NCBI RefSeq assembly: GCF_007066085.1 | Contig: NZ_CP041405.1 | Coordinates: 4,853,001 to 4,917,000, forward strand | DNA length: 64,000 nt | DNA from: Paenibacillus thiaminolyticus | Lineage (GTDB): Bacteria > Bacillota > Bacilli > Paenibacillales > Paenibacillaceae | Direction of reading: 5' to 3' | Shown here: positions 28,615 through 47,230 of the stretch, piece by piece | How the letters are laid out: each line of letters opens with the position of its first letter | Position numbering within the stretch: position 1 is the first letter of the stretch | Made by a program: the position numbers and the translations under genes | The notes under the pieces: generated by a model | Databases searched by the model: none | The model's input: the letters and a program-made list of their open reading frames with translations, nothing else | Told to the model about the DNA's origin: nothing

Positions 28615-29271
28615 ATGACGCATCTGGATAAGAAGATTATTGAGCTAGAGCAGGCGAAGAAAAGGCTGGAGCAGCAGAACAGCCGCAGTCAGGAGGGCCA
28701 GGAGGACGCGGAGCGCGAGGCGCAAGCCGAACGGCACGCGGCCCGTGAGGAGAGGGAAGCGCAGTGGCGGAGGGAGATTCGGGAAGGAATGCGGAGCGGC
28801 CGCCTCGACATCGCGGGCACTTCCGTCGAATTCCAGCCGGCAAGCTTTTTTCAACCGGGTATTCGTTTCTTGTTCCCTGGGGAGTTTCTCGTCTGCGCGC
28901 TTGATACCGAGCAGCAGAAGGTGTACCGGAACGAAGCCCATGCCGTCAATATCCTCTTGCAGTACACGGATCACCCCGGGCAGCCCATCGATATGACAGC
29001 GATGAAGAGCGAGATGATTCGCAATATGAAGAGCATGGAGCTGAATACCGAATGGGTGGAGGATGGCATGAAGGAGGTGAACGGACGGCCGATTCACTAC
29101 TGCGCATTTTTGAACCCGGTGGCGCACGGGAAGGTATTTAACTTTTTGTTTTTTGCGGATGCGGGGCGCAAGCGGCTTATCGGGAACATCAATTGCAACG
29201 GGAAGGACAGCAAGCTGTGGTCCTGCATTGCCCAGGAAATGATCGATTCGATGGAGGTGGCGCGCAGATGA
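28615..29271 (+). CDS. DcrB/DUF1795-like protein with N-terminal coiled coil
   Basis: A 218-residue cytoplasmic protein with no signal peptide. Residues 1-60 are highly charged and coiled-coil-like. Residues about 65-218 resemble the DcrB/DUF1795 fold (HAVNILLQYTDHPGQPID, VNGRPIHYCAF, LFFADAGRKRLIGNINC, WSCIAQEMIDSMEV). In Proteobacteria that fold includes Eag chaperones, which bind hydrophobic segments of type VI effectors. It is first in a run that contains VgrG-like, PAAR-like and VgrG-Rhs proteins, the last with hydrophobic segments, so an effector-chaperone role is plausible but inferred. The start follows AAGGAGGAG. Its stop overlaps the start of the VgrG-like gene (ATGA). Confidence 0.65.
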   Translation: MTHLDKKIIELEQAKKRLEQQNSRSQEGQEDAEREAQAERHAAREEREAQWRREIREGMRSGRLDIAGTSVEFQPASFFQPGIRFLFPGEFLVCALDTEQQKVYRNEAHAVNILLQYTDHPGQPIDMTAMKSEMIRNMKSMELNTEWVEDGMKEVNGRPIHYCAFLNPVAHGKVFNFLFFADAGRKRLIGNINCNGKDSKLWSCIAQEMIDSMEVARR

Positions 29272-30764
29272 GCGTATCGCAATTATCTTATCAAAATGTG
29301 AGAATTGCCCCTTTTCCCCATATGCAGCTGTTGGAGATGTCTATCGTGCAAGAGGTGAACGAGCATGGGAAGCTTACGTTCACGGGCCGAATGCCGGAGG
29401 ATCATAAGGACAATGATCTGTTCGCGATGAATGAGCAGACGCCGGTTCAAGTCGTGCAGATCACGGAGCAGGGCGAGGAGCGGGTCTTATTCTCCGGTAT
29501 TTTGTCGGAGATGCGGATCGAGAAGTCGCGGGAGGTCTATTCCGTCTATGCGGAAGCGCTCACAAGCACGGTCATGCTCGATATCCGCGTGAAAAACCGG
29601 TCGTTCCAGGACGCCGCGATGACCTACAACCAGCTCGTCCGCCATCTGGGCGGCGATTACTCGAATTACGACGTGAACTATACGTCGGAACAAAATCCTC
29701 CCCTCGGCGCCTTGGTCGTGCAGTACAAGGAAACGGATTGGGCCTTGCTGAAAAGATTGGCCTCCCGTCTTGATACGGTGGTCGTGCCGGCCGAGAACTT
29801 CAAGGACATCAAATTCAGCTTCGGTCTGCCGGATACCGGGGCGGTCAAGAAGCTGTCTCCTTCCAACTATGTCATTACGAAAAAGCTGGCCGACTATATG
29901 AGCTACCACAAAAATGTCCGCCGCAATGCGATGGAGAGCGATTTTATTTTCTATGAGCTTACGACGGATCAGTGGCTGCATCTGGGCGATGCCGTTGATT
30001 TCCAAGGGGCGCGGCTCTATGTCGGCAAGGCCGTGTCCACGATGGACCGGGGAAGCGTCAAGCACACCTACACGATTACGACCCGCAAAGGCTTGAACCG
30101 GCAATCGCCGTACAATGACGCGATCCGCGGCGCATCGATAGGCGGCACGGTGCTGGCCATTAACCGCGACAAGGTGAAGGTGCGGCTTGATATCGACAAG
30201 GATCAGGATGCCGGCAAGGCTTGCTGGTTCCCGTATTCCACCGTCTATGCCTCCGCGGACGGCAGCGGCTGGTATTGCATGCCCGAGGCGGGCGACAGCG
30301 TCCGGGTGACGTTCCCGAGCGAGCGGGAGGAGGAGGCGTTCGCCATCAGCTCGGTCAACTCGTATGCGGGAGAGCCGGCAGGAGGCGGACCGCAGGCTAG
30401 CCTGGGAGCAATGTCCGGCGGCGGCTCTGCGGGCGGGGGATCGCAGGATCGGATGGGCGATCCGAATGTCCGGTATTTCCGCAACTCTTCGGGCATGGAG
30501 GTCACGCTGGCCCCCGGCCATGTGTTGATTTCCGCGAATAACGGCCAGGCGACGATTCGGCTTGCCCAGGACGGCTCGATTACGATCGCCGGGCAGAACG
30601 AGGTCTCGCTGACCTCGAAGGAGAACGTGACCATCCGGGCGGACAAGACGCTGATGATGACCGCAAGCGAGGAGATCGCGATCGAGAGCCAGAAAGGCGG
30701 CAAGATCGTGCTCAACAGCGGGGGAGACGCGGAGTTGAAGGGGAACAAAGTACTTACGAACTAG
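29268..30764 (+). CDS. VgrG/Pvc8-family spike-like protein
   Basis: A 498-residue protein of the VgrG/phage late-control gpD superfamily. It has the gp27-like part (VQEVNEHGKLTFTGRM, AMTYNQLVRHLGGDY, VVQYKETDWALLKRLASRLD), an OB-fold region (VLAINRDKVKVRLDIDKDQ, CWFPYSTVYAS) and a C-terminal gp5-like beta-repeat region (VLISANNGQATIRLAQDGSITIAG in parts, then ENVTIRADKTLMM). A Gly/Ser-rich linker lies around residue 380-400. Such proteins form the needle tip of contractile injection machines. The first 440 or so residues resemble the head of the Rhs protein at 33207. ATG at 29268 is preferred to the open start at 29193 that overlaps the previous gene. Confidence 0.85.
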   Translation: MSVSQLSYQNVRIAPFPHMQLLEMSIVQEVNEHGKLTFTGRMPEDHKDNDLFAMNEQTPVQVVQITEQGEERVLFSGILSEMRIEKSREVYSVYAEALTSTVMLDIRVKNRSFQDAAMTYNQLVRHLGGDYSNYDVNYTSEQNPPLGALVVQYKETDWALLKRLASRLDTVVVPAENFKDIKFSFGLPDTGAVKKLSPSNYVITKKLADYMSYHKNVRRNAMESDFIFYELTTDQWLHLGDAVDFQGARLYVGKAVSTMDRGSVKHTYTITTRKGLNRQSPYNDAIRGASIGGTVLAINRDKVKVRLDIDKDQDAGKACWFPYSTVYASADGSGWYCMPEAGDSVRVTFPSEREEEAFAISSVNSYAGEPAGGGPQASLGAMSGGGSAGGGSQDRMGDPNVRYFRNSSGMEVTLAPGHVLISANNGQATIRLAQDGSITIAGQNEVSLTSKENVTIRADKTLMMTASEEIAIESQKGGKIVLNSGGDAELKGNKVLTN

Positions 30765-32628: not shown

Positions 32629-32674
32629 TTGATAAGCCGAGCGTTCATAGACGGAAAGGCAAGGAGGAATAGAT

Positions 32675-33184
32675 ATGCATGAAATGATAGCGGACGGCGG
32701 AGGCGGCGAGGGTCAAGCCGAGCCGAAATATGTGGTGCACGGCGCCTTCTGCGCCTGCAGCCAGGGAACGCGCCCCGCTCGGCTCATTATCCCGGCGAGC
32801 CACGGGGATTACATCCATGATCAGCCGCAATTGAATGTAGAGGACCAGGTGCCAATGGTCAATATCCGTCCGTTCGGACTATGTCAGAGCACGCAGAATC
32901 CTGCCGTGCAGGCCGTCATCGACGCGCTACCGCCGATGCCGAAGCAGGAGGAGGCCGGGTGGTTCGCCAGCCTGTTCATCAAGAAGGAGGCTCCGCCGCC
33001 GGAAGAGGTTCCGGTGCCCGTATGCGTAGCGATGTGCGTGCCCAATGTGACGCCGGGGATGCTCTGGCAATCGGGCAAGGAGAACGTGTTGGTCGAGGGT
33101 GCGCCCGCCCTGCTGAGCGACGGATGGATTACTTGCGCATACGGGGGCCTCATCACGATCGTGCACGACGGGCAAAGGGAATAG
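32675..33184 (+). CDS. DUF4280 PAAR-like protein
   Basis: A 169-residue cysteine-containing protein of the DUF4280 family. Features are an early VVHGAFCACSQGT, then GLCQSTQNPAVQ, CVAMCVPNV and a C-terminal LVEGAPALLSDGWITCAYGG that resembles a PAAR repeat. PAAR-like proteins cap the VgrG spike and sharpen it. The start follows AAGGAGG. It sits 22 bp before the VgrG-Rhs gene and is probably co-transcribed with it. No signal peptide, which fits loading on an intracellular machine. Confidence 0.8.
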   Translation: MHEMIADGGGGEGQAEPKYVVHGAFCACSQGTRPARLIIPASHGDYIHDQPQLNVEDQVPMVNIRPFGLCQSTQNPAVQAVIDALPPMPKQEEAGWFASLFIKKEAPPPEEVPVPVCVAMCVPNVTPGMLWQSGKENVLVEGAPALLSDGWITCAYGGLITIVHDGQRE

Positions 33185-33206: not shown

Positions 33207-36200
33207 ATGAGGATTCGTTACGGGGGAGTAATCCTCGAACTCCCGGTTGAGCTTCAACGCCTGACCGGGCTTGTTTTAACGAGAGAGGTCAATGAACATA
33301 TCCAGCTTCAGTTCAGCGCCATCATCCCGGAAGAGAAGAAGGACAGTTATATTCATGAACTCGGGTACGGATCGCCGATTATCGTCTACCGGGAGCTGGA
33401 GGACAGCAGTGAACCGGACAGCGGGAGCCGGCAAGGGGAAGTGTTGTTCCACGGCCCGATCCGCCGGATGGATATCCAGTGTGTGCGCGGTGTGTATACG
33501 CTGCAGGCCGAAGCCTGTTCCTATACGTGGGCGATGGACATCGAGCGCAAGCGGCGCTCGTTCCAGCGGGTCGATATGACCTATGCCGATGTGATTGAGC
33601 AGGTGCTGCAGGACTATCCGCATGCCAATATGCAGGATCATGCGACGAATCACGCCCGGATTGGCGGGCTGATTATGCAGTATGACGAGACCGATTGGCA
33701 GTTCATCAAGCGGCTGGCCTCGCATTTCGGCGCTGTCGTGGTGCCGGATGCGGCTTCGGGAAGCGCTCGCTTCTCGCTCGGCGTATCTGCGGATCGGGAA
33801 CCGGTGGAGGTTAGCGATGCGCAATATGTCATCCGGAACGACTTCCGCCGCAGCCTGCTGGCGCGGACGAACGAGAATCCGGAGCTGCAGGAGACCGACT
33901 TCATCAGCTTCGAGATCGACACGCCGCTCTGGCTTCCGTTAGGGGGACGCGTCAGCTTCGCCCGGAGGCCGTTCGTTATCCGCGCCGCCGCATCAGCCGT
34001 GCGGGACGGCCTTCTGCGCCACACGTATACATTCTGCACCGCCGATGGAATCAGACAAGGCTATCGGTCCAATCCGCGGATTCAAGGCTTGTCGCTGGAC
34101 GGGACGATTACGGACATCTCGCGCAACCGCATTCGGGTGCAGTTGGCCATCGATTCCGCCCAGGCGAAGGGCGATACATGCTGGTTCCCTTATTCGACGG
34201 GGATAGACAACCAGATCTCGTACCTGATGCCGAAGCCGGGCTCGGGCGTCAAGCTGCATTTCCCGACGGTGAATGAGAGAGAAGCCATTGCGATCGGCTC
34301 GGTCAGGAAGGGAGGCGAGGCGAGCAAGTACGGGCATAAGCAGTCCGACCCGAAGGTGCGATCCTTAACGAATGATACGGGCAAGGAAATGAAGCTGACC
34401 GGACAGGATGTCGTCTTCAGCGCCAATGACGAGGGCAGCATCAAGGTGCGTGTGTCTGGAGACGGCACCGTGGAGATCGCCGCGGATACCGATCTATACC
34501 TCAGCGCCGCAACTGCTGTGGCGCTTGGGGCCAGCGAGAGCGCTGCGGCGGAAGCGGCTGCGGCCGTGCCGAAGCGAATCTCGATCTCGGCGGGGGAAGA
34601 TGTGTTCATCAGCCGGAGTCCGGGGGAATACGTCGATCCGGCGCATGCGATCGCAATCCAGGATTCGACTTATGTTCAAGGAGCGAAGATTATCTATCTG
34701 GGCGAGCCCGGCGAACCGCCTGCCGAGACCTTCGACGACAGTGCTCAGCTGGCCGAGGACGCCAAGCTGATGGAGGAGGTTAACGCTCAGGCGCTGGCCT
34801 ATCGCGAGGCGTGCATTGCCAAGGCGGAGGCGGCGAAGAGCAAGTTCGGGTTCGGCGCCATCGCCTTGGTGGTCGGCGTCGTCGCGGTAGCGGTCGCGAC
34901 GGTTGCGACCGGAGGCGCCGCACTGCCGCTAATCGTCGGCGCCGCCGGCACCGTCTCGGCCATCGTGGGCGCGAGCGAGATCGCGGAGGGCCGGGAGGAT
35001 TTCGCCAAGGCTCAGGTCGGCGATCTGAGCCAATCCTATAACTTCATGCGGGATACGGTGCTCGGCGGCGACGAGGAACTGTACAATATCGTCAAATACG
35101 GCTCGGTCACCATTTCCGTGCTGGGCGGAGGCTTCTTGGCCGGGGGCACGACTTTGTTGGCCGGCGGTGTGACCGGCGGGACGATGAGTGCGGGGATAAC
35201 AGCGATATTTGATCCGTACCAGCCATTGGACGGCACCTTCAGTTGGAAAGCGATGGCCGGGCATTATTTGAAGAGCTTCTATAACGGGGCCTTGGCCGGA
35301 ACGCTCTCGGCCGGCGTGTTGAAGGGTGTTCCGTGCGGGGCCGGTCCGCTCACCCAGTTCGGCGGCAGATATAGTGCAAGCTTCGTGGCTTCAAGTGTGC
35401 TCGATATCAGCAATTCCGGCGATGTGAATTTCCTGAACAATGCGGTAAGCAGCGTATTCGGCGCGGCGTTCTCCTTCATGGGAGGAAAAAGCCGGATCGG
35501 CCGCTACGGCGCGTCCGTCACCGGGGATATGGCTGGAGGTTCCGCGATCCAGCTTCTGCAGAACGGGACCATCGACAAGGATACTTTTTTTGACCAATTG
35601 AAAAAGTCCCTCGTGAGCAATGTCGGAAATCTGGTGACGAGGTTAGACCCGATTGATGTCGCCAAAGGCCGGTTCTATCTGCAAGCGACTGATCTGGTCG
35701 TGCATGATATCGGTGATACGCTGGAGCTGACGCGCAGCTTCAATTCGCAGAACCCGTTCGTGGGCATGCTGGGCAAAGGCTGGCTTAGTTCGCTGGAGAG
35801 CTCGCTGACCCGGGTAGAGGATCGCGCCTTCCTTATCTGTATGGATGGCCACTATGAGAGCTTCATCCTCCAGGAGGGCGAATGGCGCAATGAACGGTCG
35901 GGAGCGCTCGATTACCGGTTAGTCGAGGAGCCGCGCCGAGGGAGATATGTCGTCAAGCATCAACGATACACGTATGTCTATGACGGGTCCACCGGACGGC
36001 TGGTCTCGTTCACCGACGGCAACGGCAACCGCACGGAGCTGGAATATGAGGAGGAAGGCCTGCGATCGTTGACGACGCCAGGCGGCAAGGAGCTTGCTTT
36101 TACCTGGAGGAACGGCAAGCTCGCCGCGATCACGGACAACATCGGGCGCATGGTCGAATACCGGTATGCGGGCGATCTGCTGGCCGGGGTCACCTACCCG

Positions 36201-39200
36201 AACAAGGGCGAGGTCACTTACGCCTATGATAGCGAAGGGCGTCTCACTTCGATTACCGATCAGAATGGCCATACCTATGTGCGCAATGAGTACGACCACG
36301 CCGATCGGGTCATTCGCCAGTATGACGGCGAGGGCCATGTCGCGGATATCGTCTACGACGAGCGGGCCAGGATGACGACCTTTACGTTTCATGCCACCGG
36401 AGTCGTGGAGACGTACAAATACAACCGCGATTATTTGGTTACGGAAGCGCACTACGATGACGGCACGCAGGAAGCCTACACCTACGATGCCTGGCAGAAC
36501 AAGGACAGCCATACGGCCGCCAACGGCACCGTCACGCGCTGGGTGTACGATGCCTATGGCCATTTGCTGGAGGAGGTTCGGCCTGATGGCACGAAGGTGG
36601 AGCACCAGTACGACGAAGACGGGAACCGGATTCGCACGGCGACGGCCGGTGGCAGCGAGACTTGTTACGCCTACGATACCCAGGGGAATCTGCTGGAGGA
36701 ACGGGTGCGGATCGACGACACGAACGAATCCGTCACCGCTTATGAGTATGATGAATTCGGACGGCTGATCCGCCGCATCGATCCGATGGGCCAAGCGACA
36801 ACGTTCCGGCATGAGGTCAAGCATACCGATGCGCCGACCTTCGTACAGGATGCGGAAGGCCAGCAGTTCAAGTATGGCTATGACGCCGCGGCCCGGATGA
36901 CGAGCATTACGACCTCCTACGGCACGGTGGAGATTGCCTACAATGTGCTGAACCAGCGGACGCGCATCATCGATGCGGCCGGCAACACGACGGTGCTGTT
37001 CTATGATCCGATGGGCAATGTGATCAAAAAAGTGCTGCCGAACGAATATGTGGAGCGCTTGGGCAACGGCATCGGGACGGAATATCGCTACGACTTCATG
37101 GACCGCCTCATTCGGACAACGGATCCGATGCAGAACGAGCAGCGGGTCATGTACGATATCCATGACAATCTGGTGAAGGCCGTCCATCCGAACGAATATA
37201 GCCGGACAGAGGATGACGGGGCCGGAGTCGAATATGAATACGATCACCGGAACCGCCGCATCCGGAGCTTGTTCCCGGACGGCGGCATCGCCCGCACGAA
37301 GTATGATGCTGTCGGCAATATCATCAAGACGATCGATCCGGAACGGTATAATCCTGAGACTGATGATGGTCCGGGCACCGAGTATGTCTATGATGAGATG
37401 AACCGTCTCGTTCAGATTACCGATCCAGAGGGGCATGTCATCAAGCGCTTCTTGTATGACGAGGAAGGCAGAGTCGTCAAAATGATCGATGCCCGCGGGT
37501 GGCTAAGCGGGGAGACGGATGAAGAGCGCTTCGGCACGCTGTATGCCTATAACCGGGCCGGCTGGCTGGTCGAGAAGCGGGAGCCGATCGAAGCCGAGGG
37601 CGGGGCGATCCTGTACAAGCTGACCTTGTACCGGCATGACCAGGCGGGCCGTCTCGTGGAAGAGCGGCGGACGGCGGAGCATGTCGGGGCGACCGGGTAT
37701 GCGAGCCGGTACCATCGTATCCGCTACCGGCATGACAAGCTGGGCCGGGTCATCCTGGTCGAGGATGATACGGGAGCCGAGATCCGCTACACCTATGATT
37801 GCTTGAATCAGGTTACGTCCGAGCGGCGCAAGCTGAGCGAGCAGAAGGAACAAGTCACCCGCTATCAGTACAACGCGGTCGGGCTGCTAGAACGCAAAAT
37901 CGATCTGATCGATGCGGAAGATCTGGCGGAGGGCCGCTCGTTGAGCGGAAGCGAGGATAAGATCGCCGCCGTGACCTCCTATCGCTATGACCGGAACGGC
38001 AATATGATCAAGCTGGTCACGCCGGAAGGCTATGAGACCGAGATCAGCTACGATCGGGCCGATCGCATCATTCAGATTAGCCGCCGGGAACGCCAGGACA
38101 GCAAGGCGCGGAGTGTCTACTTCAAGTATGACCGTGCGGGCAATGTGCTGGAGGAGACGGATACGAACGGCCACCGCGTGGCCTATAGCTATGATCTGAT
38201 GAATCGCCTCATCCGCACGACAGGCAAGCGGGGCGAGACGACGCGCCTGTTCTATGATCGGACGGGACAGATCATCAAGCGGGTGTCGCCGAACCAGTAT
38301 AATCCGCTTACGGATGACGGCGACGGCACTATATACCGTTATGATGCGTTGAACCGGCTGATCGAGGTTCGCGATGCCTGCGGTCAGATCGTGGAGCAGA
38401 ACCGTTATAATCAGGCGGGCGAGTTGATCCGAAAGCTGAGCGAAGGCATTGGCGTGGAATATACGTATACCATCGGCGGCCGGGTGAAGCAGATTCGCAC
38501 CGCGGAGGCTGCAGCCCGCGGCAAGGTAAGCCAGGAGTACACGTACGACGCGCTTGGCAATATTACGGGCGTCGTGGACGGCGAAGGGAATAGGACGTGC
38601 CACAGCCTGGACGCATGGGGCAACATACGGGTGCTCACTCGTGCGGATGGAAGCGAGGAGCGGTACAGCTACGACCGTGCAGGAAATATCATTAGCTCCA
38701 CGGACGCCAACGGCCATACGACCTTGTACCGCTACAACAGTCTGGGCAAGCTGGCGGCGGTGGAGGATCCGTCGCAGCAGCATATTGAGTACCAATACGA
38801 CCGCCAGGGCCGGCTGACGCGGCAGGTCGATCGCAACGAGCGCGTTATCGAGTATGCGTACAACTTCGACGACCAACTGGTGAAGCGAAGAGAAGCCGCA
38901 GGAGGCGCGGAAGAAATCTACGTCTACAACGAGGATGGCATGCTGCGAACGGCCGGCAATGATCGGATGCGGTATGACTATACGTATACGCCGGACGGCA
39001 GATTGGCGGCGAAGTATATAAGCGAACCGCCGCTTGGCATCCGCCGCAAGGGCGAATGGGCTGGATCGCCTCCGTTCGCGGACCCGTTGACAAGTCCCGG
39101 AGCGAATGGAGCGGCCGCTCCCCAGTCTTGGCATCCGATGGATGCGCTTGAGCCGGAGGCTGCGGGTGCGGGTATGCGTAAACTGCTCGAGTTCCGCTAT

Positions 39201-40802
39201 GACCCGGACGGACAGGTAACCGGGTTGACCGACGCCGCAGGCAGACATACGGAATACCGCTATGATAAAATAGGCCGTATCCAGGAAGTTCTGCAGGGCC
39301 GGGAACGTCTCGCGCAGTACCGCTATGGCGAAGGCAACCGCATCGCCTCCATTCTGTACGGAAGCGGGATCAGCGTCGAATACGGCTATGACCGGGACGG
39401 CCAGATGACGAGTCTGCGGGCGGCCGGCCAAGACGGCCGGGACCTGATGCGCCATACGTACAGCTACGACAATAACGGCAACCAGATTGCCAAGATGGAG
39501 CATCATCAGCTTACCCTTTACAGCTATGACCGCTTGAACCGCTTGCAGGAAGTGGATTACGGCAGCGGCGCCCAGGAGTCGTATAGCTACGACCCGGCGG
39601 GGAACCGCATCCGCCGCGTGCTGGACGGACATGCCACAAGCTATGCCTACGACAGCCGCAACCGTCTGCTGTCGCTGCTCGAGGACGACGGTAGCCGCAC
39701 CGAATTCGAGTACGACCGCCAGGGCAATTTGCTCTTCGAACGCTCTGGCTGCGCCATGACGACCTATGCCTATGACGCGTTCAATCGGACCGCGCAGGTC
39801 GAGATGCCGGACGGCAGCTATGTCCGCCATGACTACGACCCGGAAGGGCTGCGTAGCGGCATATGCGAGAACGGCGTGACCAGCCGCTTCGTGTTCGACG
39901 GCTGGAACATGGTGAACGAGTTGGACGAGGAGTGGAACGCGAAGGCCTCCTATGTGCGCGGTCATGAATTGCTGGCGCAAGTGGACGGCCAAGGAGATGC
40001 CTACTACTACCTGAACAACCAGCACGGCGACGTCGTGCATATCACGAATCGGCTGGGCGGCATCGTCAACAGCTACGAGTACGACGCCTTCGGCCATACC
40101 TTGTCCGCCACCGAAGGCATCCCGAACCGCTTCCGCTATGCGGGCGAGCAGTTCGACCCCGTCACGCAGCAATATTACCTGCGCGCGCGGTTCTACAACC
40201 CGGTCATTGCCCGGTTCACCCAGGAGGACGAGTACCGCGGCGACGGCCTGAACCTGTACGCGTACGTGGGTAACAACCCAATTCGGTATGTGGACCCGAG
40301 CGGGTATAGCAGCCAGAATGTTGGTTGCGGTGGTGGCGGTAAGAAGGAAGGGCCTTATGGAGGACAAAATAAATCTGATTTTAATGAGTTTACAGAAATA
40401 ACGTTAAAATACAAACCCGAAATGCCTAAATATCAATTTATTAGAAAAGCTCAAGCTCTTCAAAAATTGGGAGATGAAGGAAAATTAGTCAAGGCACAAA
40501 ATCCTGTATCAAGAGATAGAAGTGTTACGAAGAATTATAGACAAGATCTAATTAAAAGGATTTGGAAGCAATATGGAAGAAATAATCGAGACTTTGCAGA
40601 TAGGCTAATAGATAAAATTACCGATCATAAAAAAATGCAACCTGATCACATTTGGGAATTGCAGCTTAATGGTCCAGATAATGTAAATAATCTCAAGTTT
40701 TTGGACTCATTTACAAATGAGGATATTGGATTGAGGCAAATCTGGCCACAAATAAGAAATTTACCAGTAGGTACAAGAATTAAAATAAAGATAGAATTAT
40801 AA
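33207..40802 (+). CDS. VgrG-Rhs polymorphic toxin with nuclease-like tip
   Basis: A 2531-residue multidomain effector. Residues 1-450 are VgrG-like, related to the protein at 29268. About 546-595 and 632-668 are strongly hydrophobic Gly/Ala-rich segments. A DUF6531-type start lies at about 814-869 (DPIDVAKGRFYL). Rhs/YD repeats span about 920-2300. The Rhs core motif (RFRYAGEQFDPVTQQYYLRA) ends at DPSGYS (residue 2368). The C-terminal 163 residues are the toxin tip, with PDHIWELQLNG and NNLKFLD resembling His-Me-finger (HNH-like) nucleases. Base composition switches sharply from GC-rich to AT-rich right after DPSGYS, so the tip is an exchangeable cassette. The immunity gene follows 13 bp later. 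Confidence 0.88.
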   Translation: MRIRYGGVILELPVELQRLTGLVLTREVNEHIQLQFSAIIPEEKKDSYIHELGYGSPIIVYRELEDSSEPDSGSRQGEVLFHGPIRRMDIQCVRGVYTLQAEACSYTWAMDIERKRRSFQRVDMTYADVIEQVLQDYPHANMQDHATNHARIGGLIMQYDETDWQFIKRLASHFGAVVVPDAASGSARFSLGVSADREPVEVSDAQYVIRNDFRRSLLARTNENPELQETDFISFEIDTPLWLPLGGRVSFARRPFVIRAAASAVRDGLLRHTYTFCTADGIRQGYRSNPRIQGLSLDGTITDISRNRIRVQLAIDSAQAKGDTCWFPYSTGIDNQISYLMPKPGSGVKLHFPTVNEREAIAIGSVRKGGEASKYGHKQSDPKVRSLTNDTGKEMKLTGQDVVFSANDEGSIKVRVSGDGTVEIAADTDLYLSAATAVALGASESAAAEAAAAVPKRISISAGEDVFISRSPGEYVDPAHAIAIQDSTYVQGAKIIYLGEPGEPPAETFDDSAQLAEDAKLMEEVNAQALAYREACIAKAEAAKSKFGFGAIALVVGVVAVAVATVATGGAALPLIVGAAGTVSAIVGASEIAEGREDFAKAQVGDLSQSYNFMRDTVLGGDEELYNIVKYGSVTISVLGGGFLAGGTTLLAGGVTGGTMSAGITAIFDPYQPLDGTFSWKAMAGHYLKSFYNGALAGTLSAGVLKGVPCGAGPLTQFGGRYSASFVASSVLDISNSGDVNFLNNAVSSVFGAAFSFMGGKSRIGRYGASVTGDMAGGSAIQLLQNGTIDKDTFFDQLKKSLVSNVGNLVTRLDPIDVAKGRFYLQATDLVVHDIGDTLELTRSFNSQNPFVGMLGKGWLSSLESSLTRVEDRAFLICMDGHYESFILQEGEWRNERSGALDYRLVEEPRRGRYVVKHQRYTYVYDGSTGRLVSFTDGNGNRTELEYEEEGLRSLTTPGGKELAFTWRNGKLAAITDNIGRMVEYRYAGDLLAGVTYPNKGEVTYAYDSEGRLTSITDQNGHTYVRNEYDHADRVIRQYDGEGHVADIVYDERARMTTFTFHATGVVETYKYNRDYLVTEAHYDDGTQEAYTYDAWQNKDSHTAANGTVTRWVYDAYGHLLEEVRPDGTKVEHQYDEDGNRIRTATAGGSETCYAYDTQGNLLEERVRIDDTNESVTAYEYDEFGRLIRRIDPMGQATTFRHEVKHTDAPTFVQDAEGQQFKYGYDAAARMTSITTSYGTVEIAYNVLNQRTRIIDAAGNTTVLFYDPMGNVIKKVLPNEYVERLGNGIGTEYRYDFMDRLIRTTDPMQNEQRVMYDIHDNLVKAVHPNEYSRTEDDGAGVEYEYDHRNRRIRSLFPDGGIARTKYDAVGNIIKTIDPERYNPETDDGPGTEYVYDEMNRLVQITDPEGHVIKRFLYDEEGRVVKMIDARGWLSGETDEERFGTLYAYNRAGWLVEKREPIEAEGGAILYKLTLYRHDQAGRLVEERRTAEHVGATGYASRYHRIRYRHDKLGRVILVEDDTGAEIRYTYDCLNQVTSERRKLSEQKEQVTRYQYNAVGLLERKIDLIDAEDLAEGRSLSGSEDKIAAVTSYRYDRNGNMIKLVTPEGYETEISYDRADRIIQISRRERQDSKARSVYFKYDRAGNVLEETDTNGHRVAYSYDLMNRLIRTTGKRGETTRLFYDRTGQIIKRVSPNQYNPLTDDGDGTIYRYDALNRLIEVRDACGQIVEQNRYNQAGELIRKLSEGIGVEYTYTIGGRVKQIRTAEAAARGKVSQEYTYDALGNITGVVDGEGNRTCHSLDAWGNIRVLTRADGSEERYSYDRAGNIISSTDANGHTTLYRYNSLGKLAAVEDPSQQHIEYQYDRQGRLTRQVDRNERVIEYAYNFDDQLVKRREAAGGAEEIYVYNEDGMLRTAGNDRMRYDYTYTPDGRLAAKYISEPPLGIRRKGEWAGSPPFADPLTSPGANGAAAPQSWHPMDALEPEAAGAGMRKLLEFRYDPDGQVTGLTDAAGRHTEYRYDKIGRIQEVLQGRERLAQYRYGEGNRIASILYGSGISVEYGYDRDGQMTSLRAAGQDGRDLMRHTYSYDNNGNQIAKMEHHQLTLYSYDRLNRLQEVDYGSGAQESYSYDPAGNRIRRVLDGHATSYAYDSRNRLLSLLEDDGSRTEFEYDRQGNLLFERSGCAMTTYAYDAFNRTAQVEMPDGSYVRHDYDPEGLRSGICENGVTSRFVFDGWNMVNELDEEWNAKASYVRGHELLAQVDGQGDAYYYLNNQHGDVVHITNRLGGIVNSYEYDAFGHTLSATEGIPNRFRYAGEQFDPVTQQYYLRARFYNPVIARFTQEDEYRGDGLNLYAYVGNNPIRYVDPSGYSSQNVGCGGGGKKEGPYGGQNKSDFNEFTEITLKYKPEMPKYQFIRKAQALQKLGDEGKLVKAQNPVSRDRSVTKNYRQDLIKRIWKQYGRNNRDFADRLIDKITDHKKMQPDHIWELQLNGPDNVNNLKFLDSFTNEDIGLRQIWPQIRNLPVGTRIKIKIEL

Positions 40803-40815
40803 GAGGTGAAAGTTA

Positions 40816-41301
40816 ATGAATGAAACATTAAAAAAAATTATTGAAAAAACTCGAATTGCTCTAGAATCAGATCCAGATGGGCCTGTTATAGGAAAAATTA
40901 GGTCGGGGAAAGAGGTTGATTTTGAGAAAATTAAAGGTCCGAAAGATTACTATGATTTTTTAGGTATTAGTAATGGGGCAAGATGTGGTGCTATAGACCT
41001 GTTCCCATTAGAAACCATGTCAGGAAGTCAAAGTCTATTGGAATTTATAGAAAATCCAGAAGATGCTAAAGAACAGTGGATTTATATAGGTCAAACTCTT
41101 TATGAGCCACTGCTAATAAACGAGTTAGATGGATTGGTTTATCAATTTTATGAGGGTCCGCCTCTTGAAAAAGGGGAATGTTATGGTACATTTGATTGTT
41201 TTTTGTTGAATTATGTATTTGGAAAGAAATATAGTGAAATAATTCCAGATGCTGATAATGATGATTGGTTCCAGTTACTAAAGAAATTGCAAATTGTATA
41301 G
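40816..41301 (+). CDS. SUKH (SMI1/KNR4) immunity protein for the Rhs tip
   Basis: A 161-residue acidic AT-rich gene, 13 bp after the Rhs toxin, with AAGAGGTGAAAG before its ATG. The pattern KGPKDYYDFLGISNGARCGAIDLFPLE and WIYIGQTLYEPLLINE fits the SUKH superfamily, the most common immunity class for nuclease toxins. It presumably binds and blocks the nuclease-like tip of the preceding protein in the cytoplasm. Pairing is inferred from adjacency and matching base composition. Confidence 0.82.
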   Translation: MNETLKKIIEKTRIALESDPDGPVIGKIRSGKEVDFEKIKGPKDYYDFLGISNGARCGAIDLFPLETMSGSQSLLEFIENPEDAKEQWIYIGQTLYEPLLINELDGLVYQFYEGPPLEKGECYGTFDCFLLNYVFGKKYSEIIPDADNDDWFQLLKKLQIV

Positions 41302-41303
41302 CT

Positions 41304-41519
41304 ATGCAATTAAGAACTGCCCTACTTGTTCCAGGATATTACACATTCAATGAGAAAGAGCAACGAAGCATGAAAAAAGTCCTAGAAATGTGCATGGAAG
41401 ATAAAAAAACGAATTTTGAAGGGGTTATTATGGGGTTAACTATGCCTTTTGAAAGTGATATCGTGGACTGGAAGGCTTTTTTTGAAAATATCTACAAGGA
41501 ACTATTTGGAGAAAAATAA
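41304..41519 (+). CDS. Small unassigned protein or fragment
   Basis: A 71-residue frame from ATG 41304, in a different frame right after the SUKH gene, without a clear Shine-Dalgarno. The frame is also open into the end of the SUKH gene. The sequence (ALLVPGYYTFNEKEQRSMKKVLEMCMED) looks like real protein, perhaps the end of another immunity gene joined here by recombination. Family not recognised. Confidence 0.4.
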   Translation: MQLRTALLVPGYYTFNEKEQRSMKKVLEMCMEDKKTNFEGVIMGLTMPFESDIVDWKAFFENIYKELFGEK

Positions 41520-41957
41520 GGACTAATTCTGGATTCCGCTCCTCGACTGGTACTGGTTTAAAGAACACCCGTAGGATGCACTGGTATTATTCCACAAAAG
41601 GTCACAAGTAAGCTTCAGGGTCAAAAATTTAATAGTTTTGTCTTTTTCATAATTTCTTGAATGACTTTGTATTTGGTGAGCGATATATTGAGGTGGGGGG
41701 AAAGATGAATGGTATAATCTTCTGAAATCATCTGAACTTTTTTAAACCATTTGAAGTGTTAACTTTTATGAATAATTTGATTGTTTAATACACCCTAGAC
41801 AGGGTGCCAATTTGATAGCGAACTTTAGGATTTTATGCACCAGCACTGCTACCTCACCAAAAGGCATGGGGAGAGGGGGAAATTCGGGACACTACTCCGA
41901 CGTATTGCTTGGACAGACCTTTAATAATGAGATGATTGTGAAAAATGAGAAAATACC
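41520..41957. other. AT-rich intercistronic stretch, no gene recognised
   Basis: I see no complete gene. A short open stretch at 41531-41611 ends in RRMHWYYSTKGHK before a TAA and could be the 3' scrap of an old toxin tip; this is weak. The rest lacks promoters or repeats I can support. Confidence 0.4.
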
Positions 41958-41996
41958 AAGCGCTGCATCCTGACATTCAGGTGTGCAGCGCTTTGT
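41958..41996. terminator. Bidirectional terminator
   Basis: Hairpin with arms AAGCGCTGCA..CCTGA and TCAGG..TGCAGCGCTT around CAT, T-rich on both outer sides. It ends the minus-strand repressor gene and any + transcript from the Rhs unit. Confidence 0.75.
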
Positions 41997-42226
41997 TATT
42001 TACGTTTTTTGCTTGGCGGGTAAGGCTCCTTAAGATCCGTTCGGTTTAAAAGATAGTCTGTACTCGTGTTGTGCAGATCAGCCAGTTGGATTAGGATTCT
42101 GGTTGGTATGTCAACATCACCGCGTTCGTAGTTGCTGTAAATACGTTGGCTGCAATTGAGATATGCGGCGATTTGTGTCTGTGTCATGTTCTTCATTTCT
42201 CGCAGATCTCGAATTCGTTTGTACAA
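41996..42226 (-). CDS. XRE-family transcriptional repressor
   Basis: A 76-residue protein consisting almost only of an HTH_3 domain (IRDLREMKNMTQTQIAAYLNC with recognition helix SQRIYSNYERG, then ILIQLADLHNTSTDYLLNRTD). TTG at 42226, six bases after GAGGTG on the coding strand, gives the usual MYKRIRDLRE start; an in-frame ATG lies at 42247. It is divergent from the broken gene at 42340, and two matching operator-like palindromes lie between them, so autoregulation and control of that gene are likely. It resembles phage-type repressors. Confidence 0.8.
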   Translation of the reverse strand: MYKRIRDLREMKNMTQTQIAAYLNCSQRIYSNYERGDVDIPTRILIQLADLHNTSTDYLLNRTDLKEPYPPSKKRK

Positions 42227-42253
42227 TTGTACCACCTCAAATATCATTATAGT

Positions 42254-42297
42254 TTAGCGATTAATTCGCTATTTACTTTTAGTGAAATATTCGCTAA
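42254..42297. promoter_or_regulatory. Paired operators TTAGCGA-N5-TCGCTA(A)
   Basis: Two interrupted palindromes with the same half-sites and the same 5-bp spacer: TTAGCGA-TTAAT-TCGCTA at 42254-42271 and TTAGTGA-AATAT-TCGCTAA at 42279-42297. Their centres are 25 bp apart. They lie in the divergent promoter region of the XRE repressor and are its probable binding sites. Confidence 0.65.
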
Positions 42298-42339
42298 ACT
42301 AACTTCAAGGCACTGATTATAGAAGAGAGGGGTGCACAT

Positions 42340-42606
42340 ATGAAAACCATCTTAGGAGAACTGTATCACGGTAATCTTTGCCCGGAAGCGCAGATCGTAT
42401 CCAAAAATCCGGCATGCCATGACACGACTCAAAAAATTATGGAGGAGATGAAAAGGTGGCGGGAGCGACTGCCCGAAAGCGAGTAAGATCAGCTTGAAGA
42501 TTTGATGAATTTGGTTGCTGAAATGAATGCGCCGGATTCTTTTGTATACGGCTTTAAACTGGGAGCAATGATGATGATCGAAGTTTTAGGCGCTGGGGAG
42601 AAATAA
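42340..42606 (+). pseudogene. DUF6809-like gene with an in-frame stop
   Basis: From ATG 42340 (GAGAGGGG upstream) the frame reads MKTILGELYHGNLCPEAQIV, as in DUF6809 proteins. It hits TAA at 42484, then continues in the same frame as DQLEDLMNLVAEMNA and FVYGFKLGAMMMIEVLG to TAA at 42604. The intact protein would be about 88 residues. One nonsense change separates the two halves, so only a 48-residue N-terminal piece can be made. It is under the paired operators of the divergent repressor. Confidence 0.75.
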
Positions 42607-42681
42607 GGGACGGGGACAGTGAAGACTATGTGCGCGAGAGCTAGAATCGGTGCTGGGAGAGTCCAGAAGGAAACGGTTATA

Positions 42682-42996
42682 CTGTCGCTGCTTGAGGACG
42701 ACGGCGGCCGGACCGAGTTCGAGTACGACCGCTCCAGGGCAATTTGCTTTCCGAGCGTTCTGGCAGCGCTATGACGACTCTATGCCTATGACGCGTTCAA
42801 CCGGACCGCCAAGGTCGAGAAGCCGGACGGCAGCTATGTCCGCCATGAATACGACCCGGAAGGACTGCGCAGCGGCATATGCGAGAACGGCGTCACCAGC
42901 CGCTTCGTGTTCGACGGCTGGAATATGGTTACCGAGCTCGCCGAGGAGTGGAATGCGAAAGCCTCCTGTGTGCGCGGCCATGAATTATTGGCGTAG
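42682..42996 (+). pseudogene. Displaced rhs fragment A, 5' part (frameshifted)
   Basis: Near-identical to the 3' part of the main rhs gene from about 39669 on (SLLEDDGGRTEFEYDR, then YDAFNRTAKVEKPDGSYVRH, GLRSGICENGVTSRFVFDGWNM). It carries a frameshift near 42740-42780 and an in-frame TAG at 42993-42995 where the main gene has a glutamine codon. The open frame resumes at 42997 and leads into a second toxin tip. It is a silent donor cassette rather than a complete gene. Confidence 0.85.
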
Positions 42997-43815
42997 GTGG
43001 ACGGCCTTGGAGATGCCTACTACTACCTGAACAACCAGCACGGCGACGTCGTGCATATCACGAACCGGCTGGGCGGCATCGTCAACAGCTACGAGTACGA
43101 CGCCTTCGGCCATACCTTGTCCGCCACCGAAGGCATCCCGAACCGCTTCCGCTACGCGGGCGAGCAGTTCGACCCCGTCACGCAGCAATATTACCTGCGC
43201 GCGCGGTTCTACAACCCGATCATTGCCCGGTTCACCCAGGAGGACGAGTACCGCGGCGACGGCCTGAACCTGTACGCGTATGTGGGTAATAACCCGATAC
43301 GGTATGTGGACCCGAGCGGGTATTCGTGTGAGGAAAAAGGGAATGTTTATGGCAAGGGTGAAAATTTTGATGCTATAAGAGGTTATAGGGGAAGAGATTT
43401 AACTAATTTACCAAAAGAGTATCTAATTGATCCTAGATTAATGGTTGAAATGAATTATAAAGGTAAAGGCGCTTCGGGAACGAATTCAGCTGGTTGGGAA
43501 AGAAACTCAAAAAAATTCTTTAAAGAATTGCTTAAGAGAAACCCAGAGTTTTGGAGCGAAAAAAATACATCGGAAATTAGGAGAGGTAGGGCTCCAGAAG
43601 TTGATGAGCACTTTGTAAAATATTTTCCTCAATATATGGATTATTTAGAAGATCCATTGAGACACCATCATATTGGAGAAGGTGGCCAAGCCGCAGCTTT
43701 GCCAGTCACATTGCACCCTGGCTATGGTGGGGTTCATAATATTGAAAAAGAATGGGGAATAACAGGCGTGGATGATATAATTGCAAACAGATTAGATACC
43801 TTATTAAGGAGATGA
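42997..43815 (+). CDS. Orphan Rhs C-terminal tip with GHH/LHH-like nuclease
   Basis: A 272-residue open frame starting at GTG 42997, directly after a TAG in fragment A. Residues 1-108 copy the main Rhs core through DPSGYS. The rest is a different AT-rich toxin. It ends with PLRHHHIGEGGQAAALPVTLH and GYGGVHNIEKEWG, resembling HNH/endonuclease VII-type tips with a conserved HH pair. There is no Shine-Dalgarno of note, so expression is doubtful. Recombination in the shared core could place this tip on the main rhs gene. A SUKH-4 gene follows after six bases, the likely cognate immunity. Confidence 0.75.
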   Translation: MDGLGDAYYYLNNQHGDVVHITNRLGGIVNSYEYDAFGHTLSATEGIPNRFRYAGEQFDPVTQQYYLRARFYNPIIARFTQEDEYRGDGLNLYAYVGNNPIRYVDPSGYSCEEKGNVYGKGENFDAIRGYRGRDLTNLPKEYLIDPRLMVEMNYKGKGASGTNSAGWERNSKKFFKELLKRNPEFWSEKNTSEIRRGRAPEVDEHFVKYFPQYMDYLEDPLRHHHIGEGGQAAALPVTLHPGYGGVHNIEKEWGITGVDDIIANRLDTLLRR

Positions 43816-43821
43816 TTCGGT

Positions 43822-44367
43822 ATGATTTCACCACGCGAGTTTAGGAAGAAATGGGATTCCGAAAAAAATGGAAAACTTATTAATTATTCTGCTGAGCACC
43901 TTGAGAAATTACCACTCTCAAAAGAAGATAGATTATTTTTGAGCGAAGCTGGATTACCCGCGTCTGCTCCTCCATATCTAGAATTTAAAACAGTACAAAA
44001 TTTATATGATCAAAAAAATAACAATTGTAAAGTGAAAGAGGAATATCTCCCAATAGGTACTACAGGGGGAGGCGATTATGTCTATATAAACACATATAAT
44101 AGGAACATAATATATCTCGACAGTGGAAATCAAAATAAAGAAGTTTTCATTAACTCCACTATTAATCAACTTGCTGAATGTATACTTTTATTTTCAAATA
44201 TGATAGATAAAGCTATTGATACAAATGGTGAAGACGCTTATCTTGATAATGATATTCCTCCTGAGTTAATAACTTGGATTACGAATGAAATAAAGCGTGC
44301 AGATCCAAAATCTCTAGAAGAAGGAGCATTTTGGCACACAGAACTCAAAGAATTAATAAATGAATAG
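43822..44367 (+). CDS. SUKH-4-like immunity protein
   Basis: A 181-residue AT-rich gene seven bases after the orphan tip, with GGAGATG overlapping the end of that tip. The start PREFRKKWDSEKNGKLINYS, then LSKEDRLFLSEAGLPASAPPYLEF and the PIGTTGGGDYVYIN segment fit SUKH-4 immunity proteins. It presumably neutralises the GHH/LHH-like nuclease tip. It may be kept to protect against siblings that still deploy that tip. Confidence 0.78.
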   Translation: MISPREFRKKWDSEKNGKLINYSAEHLEKLPLSKEDRLFLSEAGLPASAPPYLEFKTVQNLYDQKNNNCKVKEEYLPIGTTGGGDYVYINTYNRNIIYLDSGNQNKEVFINSTINQLAECILLFSNMIDKAIDTNGEDAYLDNDIPPELITWITNEIKRADPKSLEEGAFWHTELKELINE

Positions 44368-44402
44368 GTTTTTTGAAAAAAGGATTAGTATTAGGTTGAA
44401 GG

Positions 44403-44439
44403 GCCCCAAAAGTGAGAAATTAAAAGAAACTTTTGGGGC
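44403..44439. repeat. Inverted repeat after the SUKH-4 gene
   Basis: An 11-bp perfect inverted repeat, GCCCCAAAAGT and ACTTTTGGGGC, with a 15-base A-rich loop. There is no T tract, so it may be a weak terminator. Confidence 0.5.
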
Positions 44440-44542
44440 TATGGACTTAAAGCGATACGTTCCGGAAGGATTTTGTATTACTGGTTTCTGTATTTGATTC
44501 ATTTTGGATCCCAAGCAGTTACTATATTGAAAAATAAATATG

Positions 44543-44778
44543 ATGGAAGTTAATTTTGGAGACCTTCCGAGCGTGAATCCAGACTTTCGTCAATAGCTTA
44601 ATAAAATGAAATTGAGGTTGTTATTTATGAGTACAGATGAAGTGGCACCTCCGTGTGAAGTCCTTGACGCTCTTATAAATAACACAATTATACCGATTCT
44701 TAAGCAATTGGAAGAGATAACGAGGAGAAGAGTTTTCAGTTAATAGATTTATATGGAGAACAAAAGTCAAGCGCCTAA
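44543..44778 (+). pseudogene. Small unknown gene broken by a nonsense codon and a frameshift
   Basis: The frame from ATG 44543 (MEVNFGDLPSVNPDFRQ) meets TAG at 44594 and continues in the same frame as LNKMKLRLLF, MSTDEVAPPCEVLDALINN and ILKQLEEI. A one-base shift near 44725 then links it to NEEKSFQLIDLYGEQKSSA and a TAA at 44776. The joined product would be about 78 residues. An internal ATG at 44627 gives a 38-residue piece. Family unknown. From 44779 to 45055 I see only an open stretch ending at 44951 without a start. Confidence 0.45.
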
Positions 44779-45055
44779 CTCAACCAATAAGAATAAGATT
44801 TAGACCTACCTTCAACTCCGAACAATTAAAGTTTCAGGTTGAAGCTGTTTTTTCAAGGACATTTCACCAGAAGGAACAGGATGCTCAGGTTTCTGGACAA
44901 AAGGTAAAGTTAACACTGATAATCTCAAAGTATCAAGAACTCCTTGGGTAGCGTAGTAAAATGTGTGGCAATGGAAAGGGGGAAGTAGGGTTACTTTTAA
45001 AAATATGATTCCGGCTTTCACGCAAAATAATTTCAAACCTAACATACCATTAATT

Positions 45056-45096
45056 GAGGCTTATTTCCGTTTTATTAAGATGGAATAAGCCTTTTT
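45056..45096 (+). terminator. Recurring terminator-like repeat, copy 1
   Basis: Arms AGGCTTATTTCC and GGAATAAGCCT followed by TTTTG. The same hairpin core recurs at 46631 and 48227. Here it lies immediately before rhs fragment B. Confidence 0.65.
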
Positions 45097-45109
45097 GTAT
45101 AATAAGCAT

Positions 45110-45375
45110 AACCAGCACGGCGACGTCGTGCACATCACGAACCGGCTGGGCGGCATCGTCAACAGCTATCGAGTCCGACGCCTTTGGCCATACCTTATCT
45201 GCTTCGAAGGCATCCCGAACCACTTCCGATATCCGGGCGAGCAGTTCGACCTCGTCATGCAGCAATAGTACCTGTGCGCGTGCTTCTATAACCCGGTCAT
45301 TGCCCGGTTCACTCAGGAGAACGAGTACCGCGGCGACGGTCTGGACCTGTACGAATAGGCGTATGGGGAAAAAAC
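45110..45375 (+). pseudogene. Displaced rhs fragment B
   Basis: Corresponds to the main rhs core from about 40017 (NQHGDVVHITNRLGGIVNSY) to the LYAYVGN region. It has insertions, several stop codons (for example TAG within the QYYLRA motif) and ends in a TAG near 45357. It has diverged more than fragment A, so it is older or unselected. No toxin tip is attached. A Syd-family immunity gene follows. Confidence 0.85.
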
Positions 45376-45428
45376 CAGGTTTTTGCAGATAGACTTCAAT
45401 TATTATTGACAATTAAGAGGTGATTAGG

Positions 45429-45968
45429 GTGAGTGTCAAAGAAGAATTAGCCCATTATTATGATGAATTACTGAGTTACTGGAATAATACTTTTGGAACT
45501 TTACCAAAGATCCCATTTGATGAAGAGGCTAATCCCTTATTATATCAAGGCGAACCGGATGAAGATGAGTATGTCTCTTGGAAGCCGATAGTAAAAGAAG
45601 AGCAGGAAGATTTTGAAGCGATTGAGACGAATATTGATTTACATTTACATTCATCTATAAAGGAGTATTTTAATTCCTTTTGGTTTTTAAACCTTCAGGG
45701 TTTTTATAATTCAAAGTTAATTATTCTAGAACCTGTTGAACCAGGTATGGACATTAATAATTTTTTTGTTAATCAAAAAAAATACGAGGAACATCAAGGA
45801 AAAATAATAAAAAATATTCAACTTGGTTACATTTCACCAGAGAATATGGCAGTGATGGTCAACAACGAGACTGGAGAAATTCTACAAGAAGATTTTGAAA
45901 CAGGGCATACTACTGTGATTGCCAAATCTTTAGAAGAACTTATTAAAGGCTTACGAGTCACAAGATAA
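45429..45968 (+). CDS. Syd-family (SUKH superfamily) immunity protein
   Basis: A 179-residue AT-rich protein from GTG 45429, nine bases after AAGAGG; an in-frame GTG at 45420 abuts that site. It aligns by eye with Syd along its length: EEANPLLYQGEPDEDEYVSWKPI, then SIKEYFNSFWFLNLQG, ISPENMAVMVNNETGEI and TVIAKSLEELIKGL. Syd-like proteins are common immunity proteins of polymorphic toxins. It follows a ruined rhs fragment with no tip, so the toxin it answered has been lost here. A fragment of a close relative lies at 53630. Confidence 0.78.
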   Translation: MSVKEELAHYYDELLSYWNNTFGTLPKIPFDEEANPLLYQGEPDEDEYVSWKPIVKEEQEDFEAIETNIDLHLHSSIKEYFNSFWFLNLQGFYNSKLIILEPVEPGMDINNFFVNQKKYEEHQGKIIKNIQLGYISPENMAVMVNNETGEILQEDFETGHTTVIAKSLEELIKGLRVTR

Positions 45969-45974
45969 AATTGA

Positions 45975-46342
45975 TTGATAATATATGAAAGGTGGGCTTC
46001 TGCCCTAGGAGTGAATTTTGATGTATATATTTACTCTCTAGTATCTTTAGGAGGTAAGCCAATTCCAAAGTACTTGGAAAGCACATATATGATGTTAAAA
46101 AGTACTTTTCCTAATGGTATTGGAGATGAGGAATACTTTCCACTCATTTCCTTGCTTTACGAGTATATGTCTGACAGAAATTTAGCTAAGGTTATTTCGT
46201 CAATCACTGAAAAAGACATAACTATCACTATTAATGACATTCAAAAACAGTGTCAGCAAACCTCGCAAGTGATGAAGTCATAGATAATATTAGAGCGAAA
46301 CTTCTTCGTCATGGTTTTGAAGAGTGGACGGAAGAGGAATAA
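45975..46342 (+). pseudogene. Frameshifted DUF3349-like small gene
   Basis: The frame from a TTG at 45975 encodes KYLESTYMMLKSTFP, GIGDEEYFPLISLLYEYMSD and LAKVISSITEKD. After about 46250 it runs into a different ending and a TAG. A one-base shift there continues as ASDEVIDNIRAKLLRHGFEEW to TAA at 46340, which looks like the native end. The spacing of helices resembles DUF3349-type proteins, but that is a weak match. There is no good start or Shine-Dalgarno. It lies just after the Syd-like gene. Confidence 0.5.
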
Positions 46343-46351
46343 ATACTGTGA

Positions 46352-46386
46352 CCTTGAATGCTTCAGACATTCAAGGTTTTCTTTAT
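46352..46386 (+). terminator. Rho-independent terminator
   Basis: A perfect 9-bp hairpin (CCTTGAATG, 7-base loop, CATTCAAGG) followed by TTTTCTTTATTT, ten bases after the preceding frame ends. Confidence 0.8.
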
Positions 46387-46873
46387 TTGTGGGGCTACCC
46401 AGTGTGGAGTGAAGAATAGCACACATAACCCATGTATTTGTTCACGAGGCATTAAGGCACAAGCTAAATTACTGGAAAAAATATACAACAAACTTGAGGA
46501 AGAGGTAGATTGGGGGCTAATTGACAACATTGATCTCAAGACTGTTTAATTGTTTAGATTAAGAAGTGGTTTCCCAAAATACAGCCACCGAACCAAACAC
46601 TAAACAACTTGAAAATCACACTTGCTAACTAAAAGCTTATTCCACTTTGAAGATAAGGAGGAATAAGCCTTTTTTCAAAGTAGGGTAAGAATATAGGGAA
46701 GAAAATAACTAACAGAGGAAAAGGCAGGATTATTAAGCTTTGATACAATTACCATATGAGGCGGCAATGGAATCTCCACAGTTACCCACCGTATGGAAGA
46801 ATGTCCACGAAATTGAAATTATGAACTCGATTAGATTTAGCAGACCGAATTCGGCTTTATAAGAGGGGGTGTT
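46387..46873. other. Remnant-bearing stretch without an intact gene
   Basis: Open pieces without credible starts: the end of a frame reading AKLLEKIYNKLEEEVDWGLI to TAA at 46547, and about 40 codons at 46740-46862 ending in RFSRPNSAL. Both look like ends of lost cassette genes. The stretch also holds copy 2 of the terminator repeat (46631-46676). Confidence 0.4.
46631..46676 (+). terminator. Recurring terminator-like repeat, copy 2
   Basis: Arms GCTTATTCC and GGAATAAGC with a loop containing ATAAGGA, followed by six T. Both arms and the loop motif match the copy at 48227. Confidence 0.7.
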
Positions 46874-47230
46874 GACCGGAAGGGCTGCGCAGCGGCATTT
46901 ACGAGAACGGCGTCACCAGCCGCTTCGTGTTCGACGGCTGGAATATGGTGAACGAGTGGACGAGGAGTGGAACGCCAAGGCCAGTTATGTACGAGGCCAT
47001 GAATTAATGGCGCAAGTGGACGGCCAAGGAGATGCCTACTACTACCTGAACAACCAGCACGGCGACGTCGTGCAGATCACGAACCGGGATGGGCCGTATC
47101 GACAACAGCTACGAGTACGACGCCTTCGGCCACACTTTGTCCGCCACCGAAGGCATCTTTCGAACAGCTTCCGCTACGCGAGCGAGCAGTTCGACCCCGT
47201 CACGCAGCAATATTACTTGTGCGCGGTTCG
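46874..47230 (+). pseudogene. Displaced rhs fragment C
   Basis: Matches the main rhs gene from about 39837 (EGLRSGICENGVTSRFVFDGWNM) to the QYYLRA motif, then ends abruptly. At least three frameshifts are visible (after the WNMVNE region, after HITNR, and after TEGI). No toxin tip or immunity gene follows; the next gene is nfi on the other strand. It marks the distal end of the rhs array. Confidence 0.85.

Follow-up and report, generated by a model that had tools for sequence, protein, structure and literature searches.

How does a single gene come to be followed by several partial copies of its own core, with differing sequence behind them? We address this question for a VgrG-like/Rhs fusion gene of Paenibacillus thiaminolyticus, which lies within a stretch of 64,000 nucleotides (the window) taken from a 6.6 Mb single-contig genome.

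The main gene and the fragments behind it

The fusion gene runs from 33207 to 40802 on the forward strand and encodes a protein of 2531 aa. Its constant part leads into a toxin tip, and a probable immunity gene and three core fragments (A, B and C) follow. The features on which the argument rests are these, in window coordinates:

29193..30764, forward strand: second VgrG-like gene, with GPD, OB domain and DUF2345
32675..33184, forward strand: DUF4280 gene, directly preceding the main gene
33207..40310, forward strand: constant part of the main gene, with a VgrG-like (phage GPD) N-terminus, DUF6531 and the Rhs/YD-repeat core (PF05954, PF20148, PF05593, TIGR03696)
40311..40802, forward strand: main-position toxin tip, 163 aa, of which 10-16 aa are a shared linker
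40816..41301, forward strand: SUKH-1/SMI1-like gene (E 0.0045, below the Pfam cut-off), probably the immunity gene for the main tip
42682..43323, forward strand: core fragment A, core nt 6463-7101, 93.0% nucleotide identity, frame broken upstream of 42997
43324..43815, forward strand: orphan tip A, a Tox-HNH-HHH nuclease-type toxin (PF15637, 8e-49), open, the same as the active tip of the relative G007
43822..44367, forward strand: orphan immunity gene A, SUKH-4 (PF14435, 1.7e-11)
45110..45353, forward strand: core fragment B, core nt 6811-7054, 90.2% nucleotide identity
45354..45419, forward strand: toxin remnant at B, the end of a Tox-HNH-HHH-type toxin, the remainder missing
45420..45968, forward strand: orphan immunity gene B, Syd/SUKH-2 (PF07348, 2e-20), intact
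45975..46283, forward strand: small reading frame after the Syd gene, with a weak DUF3349 match
46876..47225, forward strand: core fragment C, core nt 6634-6981, 90.9% nucleotide identity, without a tip

The motif DPSGYS forms the end of the Rhs_assc_core block and is reached at 40310 in the main gene. The core has a GC content of about 60% and the tips one of about 30%, and the drop takes place within some 50 nt past this motif. A preliminary description of this DNA had set the switch in composition exactly after DPSGYS; it is indeed near, but a shared linker of about 49 nt in the intact gene and about 41 nt in A, common to several unrelated tips, comes first. Past the motif, the first 50 nt have 56% GC and the following 50 nt 22% in the intact gene, compared to 40% and 30% in fragment A. 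A Pfam search placed the main tip in no family above the cut-off, and a sequence search with the first 500 residues of the main protein returned no solved structure. Judged from its sequence and position, the gene behind the tip is probably its immunity gene; a homologue of this SUKH-1-like gene adjoins the homologous tip in all seven loci compared in other genera.

When the own genome of 6.6 Mb was searched with 39600-40310, the four matches obtained (E 0 to 1.7e-89) all fell within this one locus, so that chance is excluded as their origin. An assembly artefact was ruled out as well, both by the single-contig genome and by the equal anatomy in other assemblies. The search and the alignment together bear out what the preliminary description had reported, namely three partial copies of the core downstream. 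These are homologous to it at the nucleotide level (90.2-93.0%), with A and B beginning where it had placed them and C, by alignment, at 46876. The toxin or immunity sequence that it had placed between the fragments is present as a full pair at A, but B retains the immunity gene and a toxin remnant and C has neither. An open frame (42997-43815) leads from the core end in fragment A into a different AT-rich tip, and toxin domain (PF15637) and immunity gene (PF14435) follow each other in the order of polymorphic toxins. At B, residues 153-187 of a tip from a P. alvei protein record (P0005) match 45286-45417 (E 6e-6). The upstream junction of fragment B is also present at the first fragment (f1) of G007, and G007 has the same 3' end and flank as fragment C. 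Main gene and A are 99% identical close to the end of the core (40112-40260). Gene conversion between the two was considered for this tract and is not supported, as the main gene agrees at 67-70 of 70 positions per bin with the five other main-position copies aligned.

The ten upstream genes tested (24485-33184) comprise a zinc-uptake-like ABC operon, a metal repressor, the second VgrG-like gene, a pentapeptide-repeat gene, the DUF4280 gene and three genes without a family; no sheath or baseplate gene is among them. The DUF4280 gene may have a PAAR-like role. Gram-positive bacteria are not known to have a type VI system. The two sheath genes of the genome belong to one distant cluster, about 2.7 Mb from the locus, where tail-like reading frames surround them and some 15 kb separates the two (G000:C1 2187678-2203670; L068, L069). 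This cluster could be a prophage remnant, a tailocin or an injection system. DUF4280 genes number three in the genome, and all have GPD/VgrG-like genes within a few kb; such clusters lie at 863 kb, 3501 kb and 4886 kb of G000:C1, and no recognisable sheath match was found near the first two. A helix-turn-helix regulator gene (41996-42247, reverse strand) is located between the main cassette and fragment A, and an endonuclease V gene (47372-48079, reverse strand) between the array and deoR-fruK-like genes. The latter follows the array in G007 too, and had no match in the stretches fetched from G016 and G008. Near the start of the window (90-15309) there is a siderophore-like cluster with a chorismate-binding enzyme, an isochorismatase, an AMP-binding enzyme, a two-module peptide synthetase of 2404 aa and a transporter. 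No RNA families at the gathering threshold and no tRNAs were found in the window.

Cores, fragments and tips in the genus

Among 19 genomes of the genus, our own included, nine matched the core end. Two of these (G002 and G017), which matched over about 30 bases only, were dropped from the counts, and a full-length core alignment was obtained in seven: the window, G003 (P. apiarius MW-14), G007, G008 (P. dendritiformis G25-126), G009 (Paenibacillus sp. 2.1), G011 (P. profundus YoMME) and G016. Core fragments occur in six of the seven and number 18 in the stretches fetched (three in the window, two each in G007 and G016, three in G009, one in G008 and seven in G003); the contig of G011 stops 1.3 kb past the core. 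All 18 derive from the 3' part of the 7,104-nt core, none matches its first 4,856 nt, and 13 reach the core end. In G008 and G009 the fragments and the full-length gene are on separate contigs. The full-length gene of G009 (contig C9, L054) lies apart from a fragment array with partial deoR-fruK matches (C8, L055/L056), which suggests either a rearrangement at the locus or an assembly effect.

All seven main-position tips differ, and pairwise they share at most their first 73 nt (blastn, E up to 1e-5). A fixed order of tips without variation in the relatives, against which the preliminary description had set its own reading, was thus not seen. None of the 18 other genomes of the genus contains the main tip of the window. 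Its homologues occur in eight genomes of three other genera (nine of 394 genomes, our own included), where a homologue of the core end stands directly upstream of the tip in seven of seven loci and a further core-end fragment lies beyond the immunity gene in four of the seven.

Orphan cassettes are preserved to very different degrees. The toxin frame is open in A of the window, in f1 of G007 and in f1, f3 and f4 of L060 in G003. The toxin of the Syd-type cassette, of which B is the example in the window, is deleted there, split over two frames in f2 of G016 and shortened in G003 and G009, and the record from P. alvei carries a homologous toxin on a full-length gene. The Syd immunity gene itself is intact in the window and in G016 and broken in G003 and G009, that is, intact in two of its four orphan places. 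Between the window and G016 its divergence is mostly synonymous (dN 0.026, dS 0.186, 179 codons). Terminator-like stems (GGCTTATTCC...GGAATAAGCCTTT) recur at 45058 and 48228 of the window, at 9904 of L055 and at 14374, 12328 and 16341 of L059 and L060 (reversed). Two of them are located just upstream of core fragments (B in the window, f2 in G003), and these stems perhaps mark the old 3' end of each cassette.

Age and probable site of the exchanges

Several tips that are orphans in one genome occupy the main position in another, two of them together with their immunity gene. The orphan pair A of the window (43324-44367) is the active tip and immunity gene of G007, with identities of 98.98% and 99.08%, compared to 91.9% for the spacer, 95.5% for the endonuclease V gene and about 95% for the core. 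This tract of 99% identity stops shortly past the immunity gene. Synonymous divergence between the window and G007 is 0.0195 for the A pair (344 codons) and 0.160 for the core (2365 codons; Fisher p 5.1e-9), and the DUF4280 and endonuclease V genes together give 0.113 (404 codons; p 1.7e-4). As the dS of the pair is far below that of core and neighbors, the pair must have changed hands after the lineages of the window and G007 had split.

The same is seen over a larger distance between G007 and G011. The orphan f1 pair of G007 and the main-position pair of G011 differ by a dS of 0.207 (320 codons), while the cores of the two genomes have a dS of 1.12 over their first 1994 codons (p 2.4e-26). 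The frame of the G011 main gene is interrupted near codon 2060 in this draft, so that its tip stands at the main position and is perhaps not expressed. Two protein records extend the series. The core of P0003, named as P. apiarius, and the main gene of G003 are 97.8% identical, and the active tip of the record is the orphan f3 tip of G003 in 145 of 145 residues; a swap within a species rests on this single record, as one genome per species was available as DNA. P0002, named as P. dendritiformis, carries the tip of the first core fragment on contig C8 of G009 (99.4%). A tip can therefore be dissociated in one genome and attached to the full-length gene in another, as A is relative to G007 and f3 of G003 relative to P0003, and the dS comparison gives core and tip separate histories. 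The preliminary description had placed recombination in the shared core, and tip dS far below that of the carrying cores supports recombination at or near it.

Where within the core the exchange occurs can be narrowed with less certainty. Comparison of six pairs within the close group gave a dN of 0 and a dS of 0.04-0.11 for codons 2276-2344. Over the last 23 codons, which hold few synonymous sites, dS is 0.37-1.03 between different tip-linker classes and 0.15-0.34 within one class. This pattern is compatible with crossing over inside the conserved block, the final 70 nt or so moving together with the tip, although the dip at codons 2276-2344 is not unique, as other bins of 150 codons go down to a dS of 0.04.

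Probable displacement of cassettes and its alternatives

Comparison establishes fragments homologous to the 3' part of the core only, differing tips at one locus, pairs that are orphan in one genome and main in another, and pairs much younger than the cores that carry them. On this basis we consider it very probable that toxin tip and immunity gene of the Rhs locus are swapped together, through homologous recombination within the conserved 3' stretch of the core. A newly arriving cassette, made up of core 3' end, tip and immunity gene, would recombine into the core of the full-length gene, and its tip would then be the expressed one. The old tip would end up downstream, together with its immunity gene and a short piece of core, all of them without the start and the delivery region. 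Displaced toxins would tend to decay while some immunity genes remain intact, and an intact displaced pair such as A could return to a full-length gene, by copying or by recombination, within its own species or in a related one. Recombination might involve a circular or other intermediate and use the machinery of the host, and the toxins may be directed against rival bacteria. A search for a plasmid or phage carrier gave no near match, and the stretch between the main cassette and A (41302-42681), considered as a mobile unit, is single copy in the genome. In this strain, a new tip would have been gained and A displaced. Insertion here is the simpler reading, given that G007 carries A at its main position and that none of the 18 congeners searched has the main tip of the window; the alternative is a deletion in the line of G007, and the preference is one of parsimony.

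Fragments that are homologous, equally oriented and decayed might also be left by tandem duplications of the whole rhs gene that eroded from the 5' side without any exchange of tips. Such an origin is very improbable and we reject it: in six genomes none of the 18 fragments retains anything of the first 4,856 nt of the core, the orphan tips are unrelated or distantly related to the main tip, and the pairs of tip and immunity gene are far younger than the core. The displaced cassettes might form a working silent switch: by recombining with the main core, downstream fragments would regularly bring an orphan tip to expression within a culture, as in pilin variation. That A is intact and serves as an active tip in G007, that P. 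apiarius MW-14 has as an orphan the active tip of a second P. apiarius record, and that the same has been demonstrated for Salmonella (PMC3967940) speak in its favor; we nevertheless hold it to be unlikely here, as a simple crossover of the deletion type would cost the main cassette and could hardly be undone, and B and C are unusable. It is similarly doubtful that the cassettes constitute a working silent reservoir for a whole group of Paenibacillus species, in which intact pairs move as units between silent and expressed positions, and from species to species, through the short hyperconserved core block. If they do, a single culture would hold cells with switched tips.

Selection might instead keep the immunity genes alone, so that the array is a store of antidotes against the tips of neighbors and the orphan toxins are debris. 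Cassette B would suit this well, as its toxin is gone, its Syd gene is intact and has diverged from the copy in G016 mostly at synonymous sites, and a homologous toxin is carried by a full-length gene in the P. alvei record. The open toxin frames of A, of f1 in G007 and of f1, f3 and f4 in G003 are not expected of debris, and the broken Syd copies of G003 and G009 are not expected of guarded antidotes; we regard a pure antidote store as improbable. The preliminary description had called the array an archive of tips acquired or displaced by recombination. Its observation is confirmed and the displaced-tip reading is supported and largely right; the word archive suits A, as a re-usable tip, but not B and C, which have decayed.

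The phenomenon itself is already known. Displacement of Rhs C-termini was described in Serratia marcescens and E. coli by Jackson et al. in 2009 (PMC2935791), where core recombination and circular intermediates are proposed and the S. marcescens locus has three fragments with a core about 91.6% identical at the protein level. The enterobacterial loci described there share with ours a GC-rich rhs gene of full length, behind which partial cores with unlike AT-rich tips are found, as well as a tip that is associated in one strain and dissociated in another. Our locus differs from that account in belonging to a Gram-positive Paenibacillus, in the fusion of the Rhs core to a VgrG-like hub, in the recognition of the immunity genes and in the use of synonymous divergence to date the tips relative to the core. 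Koskiniemi et al. (2014; PMC3967940) reported recombination between main and orphan regions in passaged cultures of Salmonella Typhimurium LT2. LT2 likewise has an orphan core fragment with toxin and immunity gene downstream of the main gene, and what is an orphan in one serovar occupies the main position in another; there recombination in culture was shown by experiment, and here by genome comparison alone.

Truncated duplicates with other tips have also been described for Rhs proteins of Gram-positive bacteria. Parts of two reports cover the WapA orphans of Streptococcus suis (2025; PMC12704120), where old pairs are stated to be shifted downstream by new ones, and the truncated lrhA genes found in Listeria seeligeri (2023; PMC10327511). 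Both proteins have other N-termini and export routes than the one studied here, and these parts of the reports give no dating of tips relative to the core. In the accessible part of their survey of polymorphic toxins, which does not mention this locus, Zhang et al. (2012; PMC3482391) described variable C-terminal toxins that diversify when they recombine with stand-alone cassettes. The immunity genes of the SUKH superfamily at A and B and the HNH/Endo VII-type toxin at A are shared with systems covered there. In the open-access literature, we found no title on this Paenibacillus Rhs locus. What is new is a Gram-positive, VgrG-like-fused example with a dated series of exchanges.

C-terminal displacement, best described in Gram-negative enterobacteria, is thereby extended to a VgrG-like/Rhs fusion of the Gram-positive genus Paenibacillus. 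A pair that is orphan in one genome and main in another, and several times younger than its carrier gene, makes the rate and the range of exchange measurable. Moreover, an intact Syd gene beside a deleted toxin provides a test case for the question of whether lost toxins leave useful protection behind.
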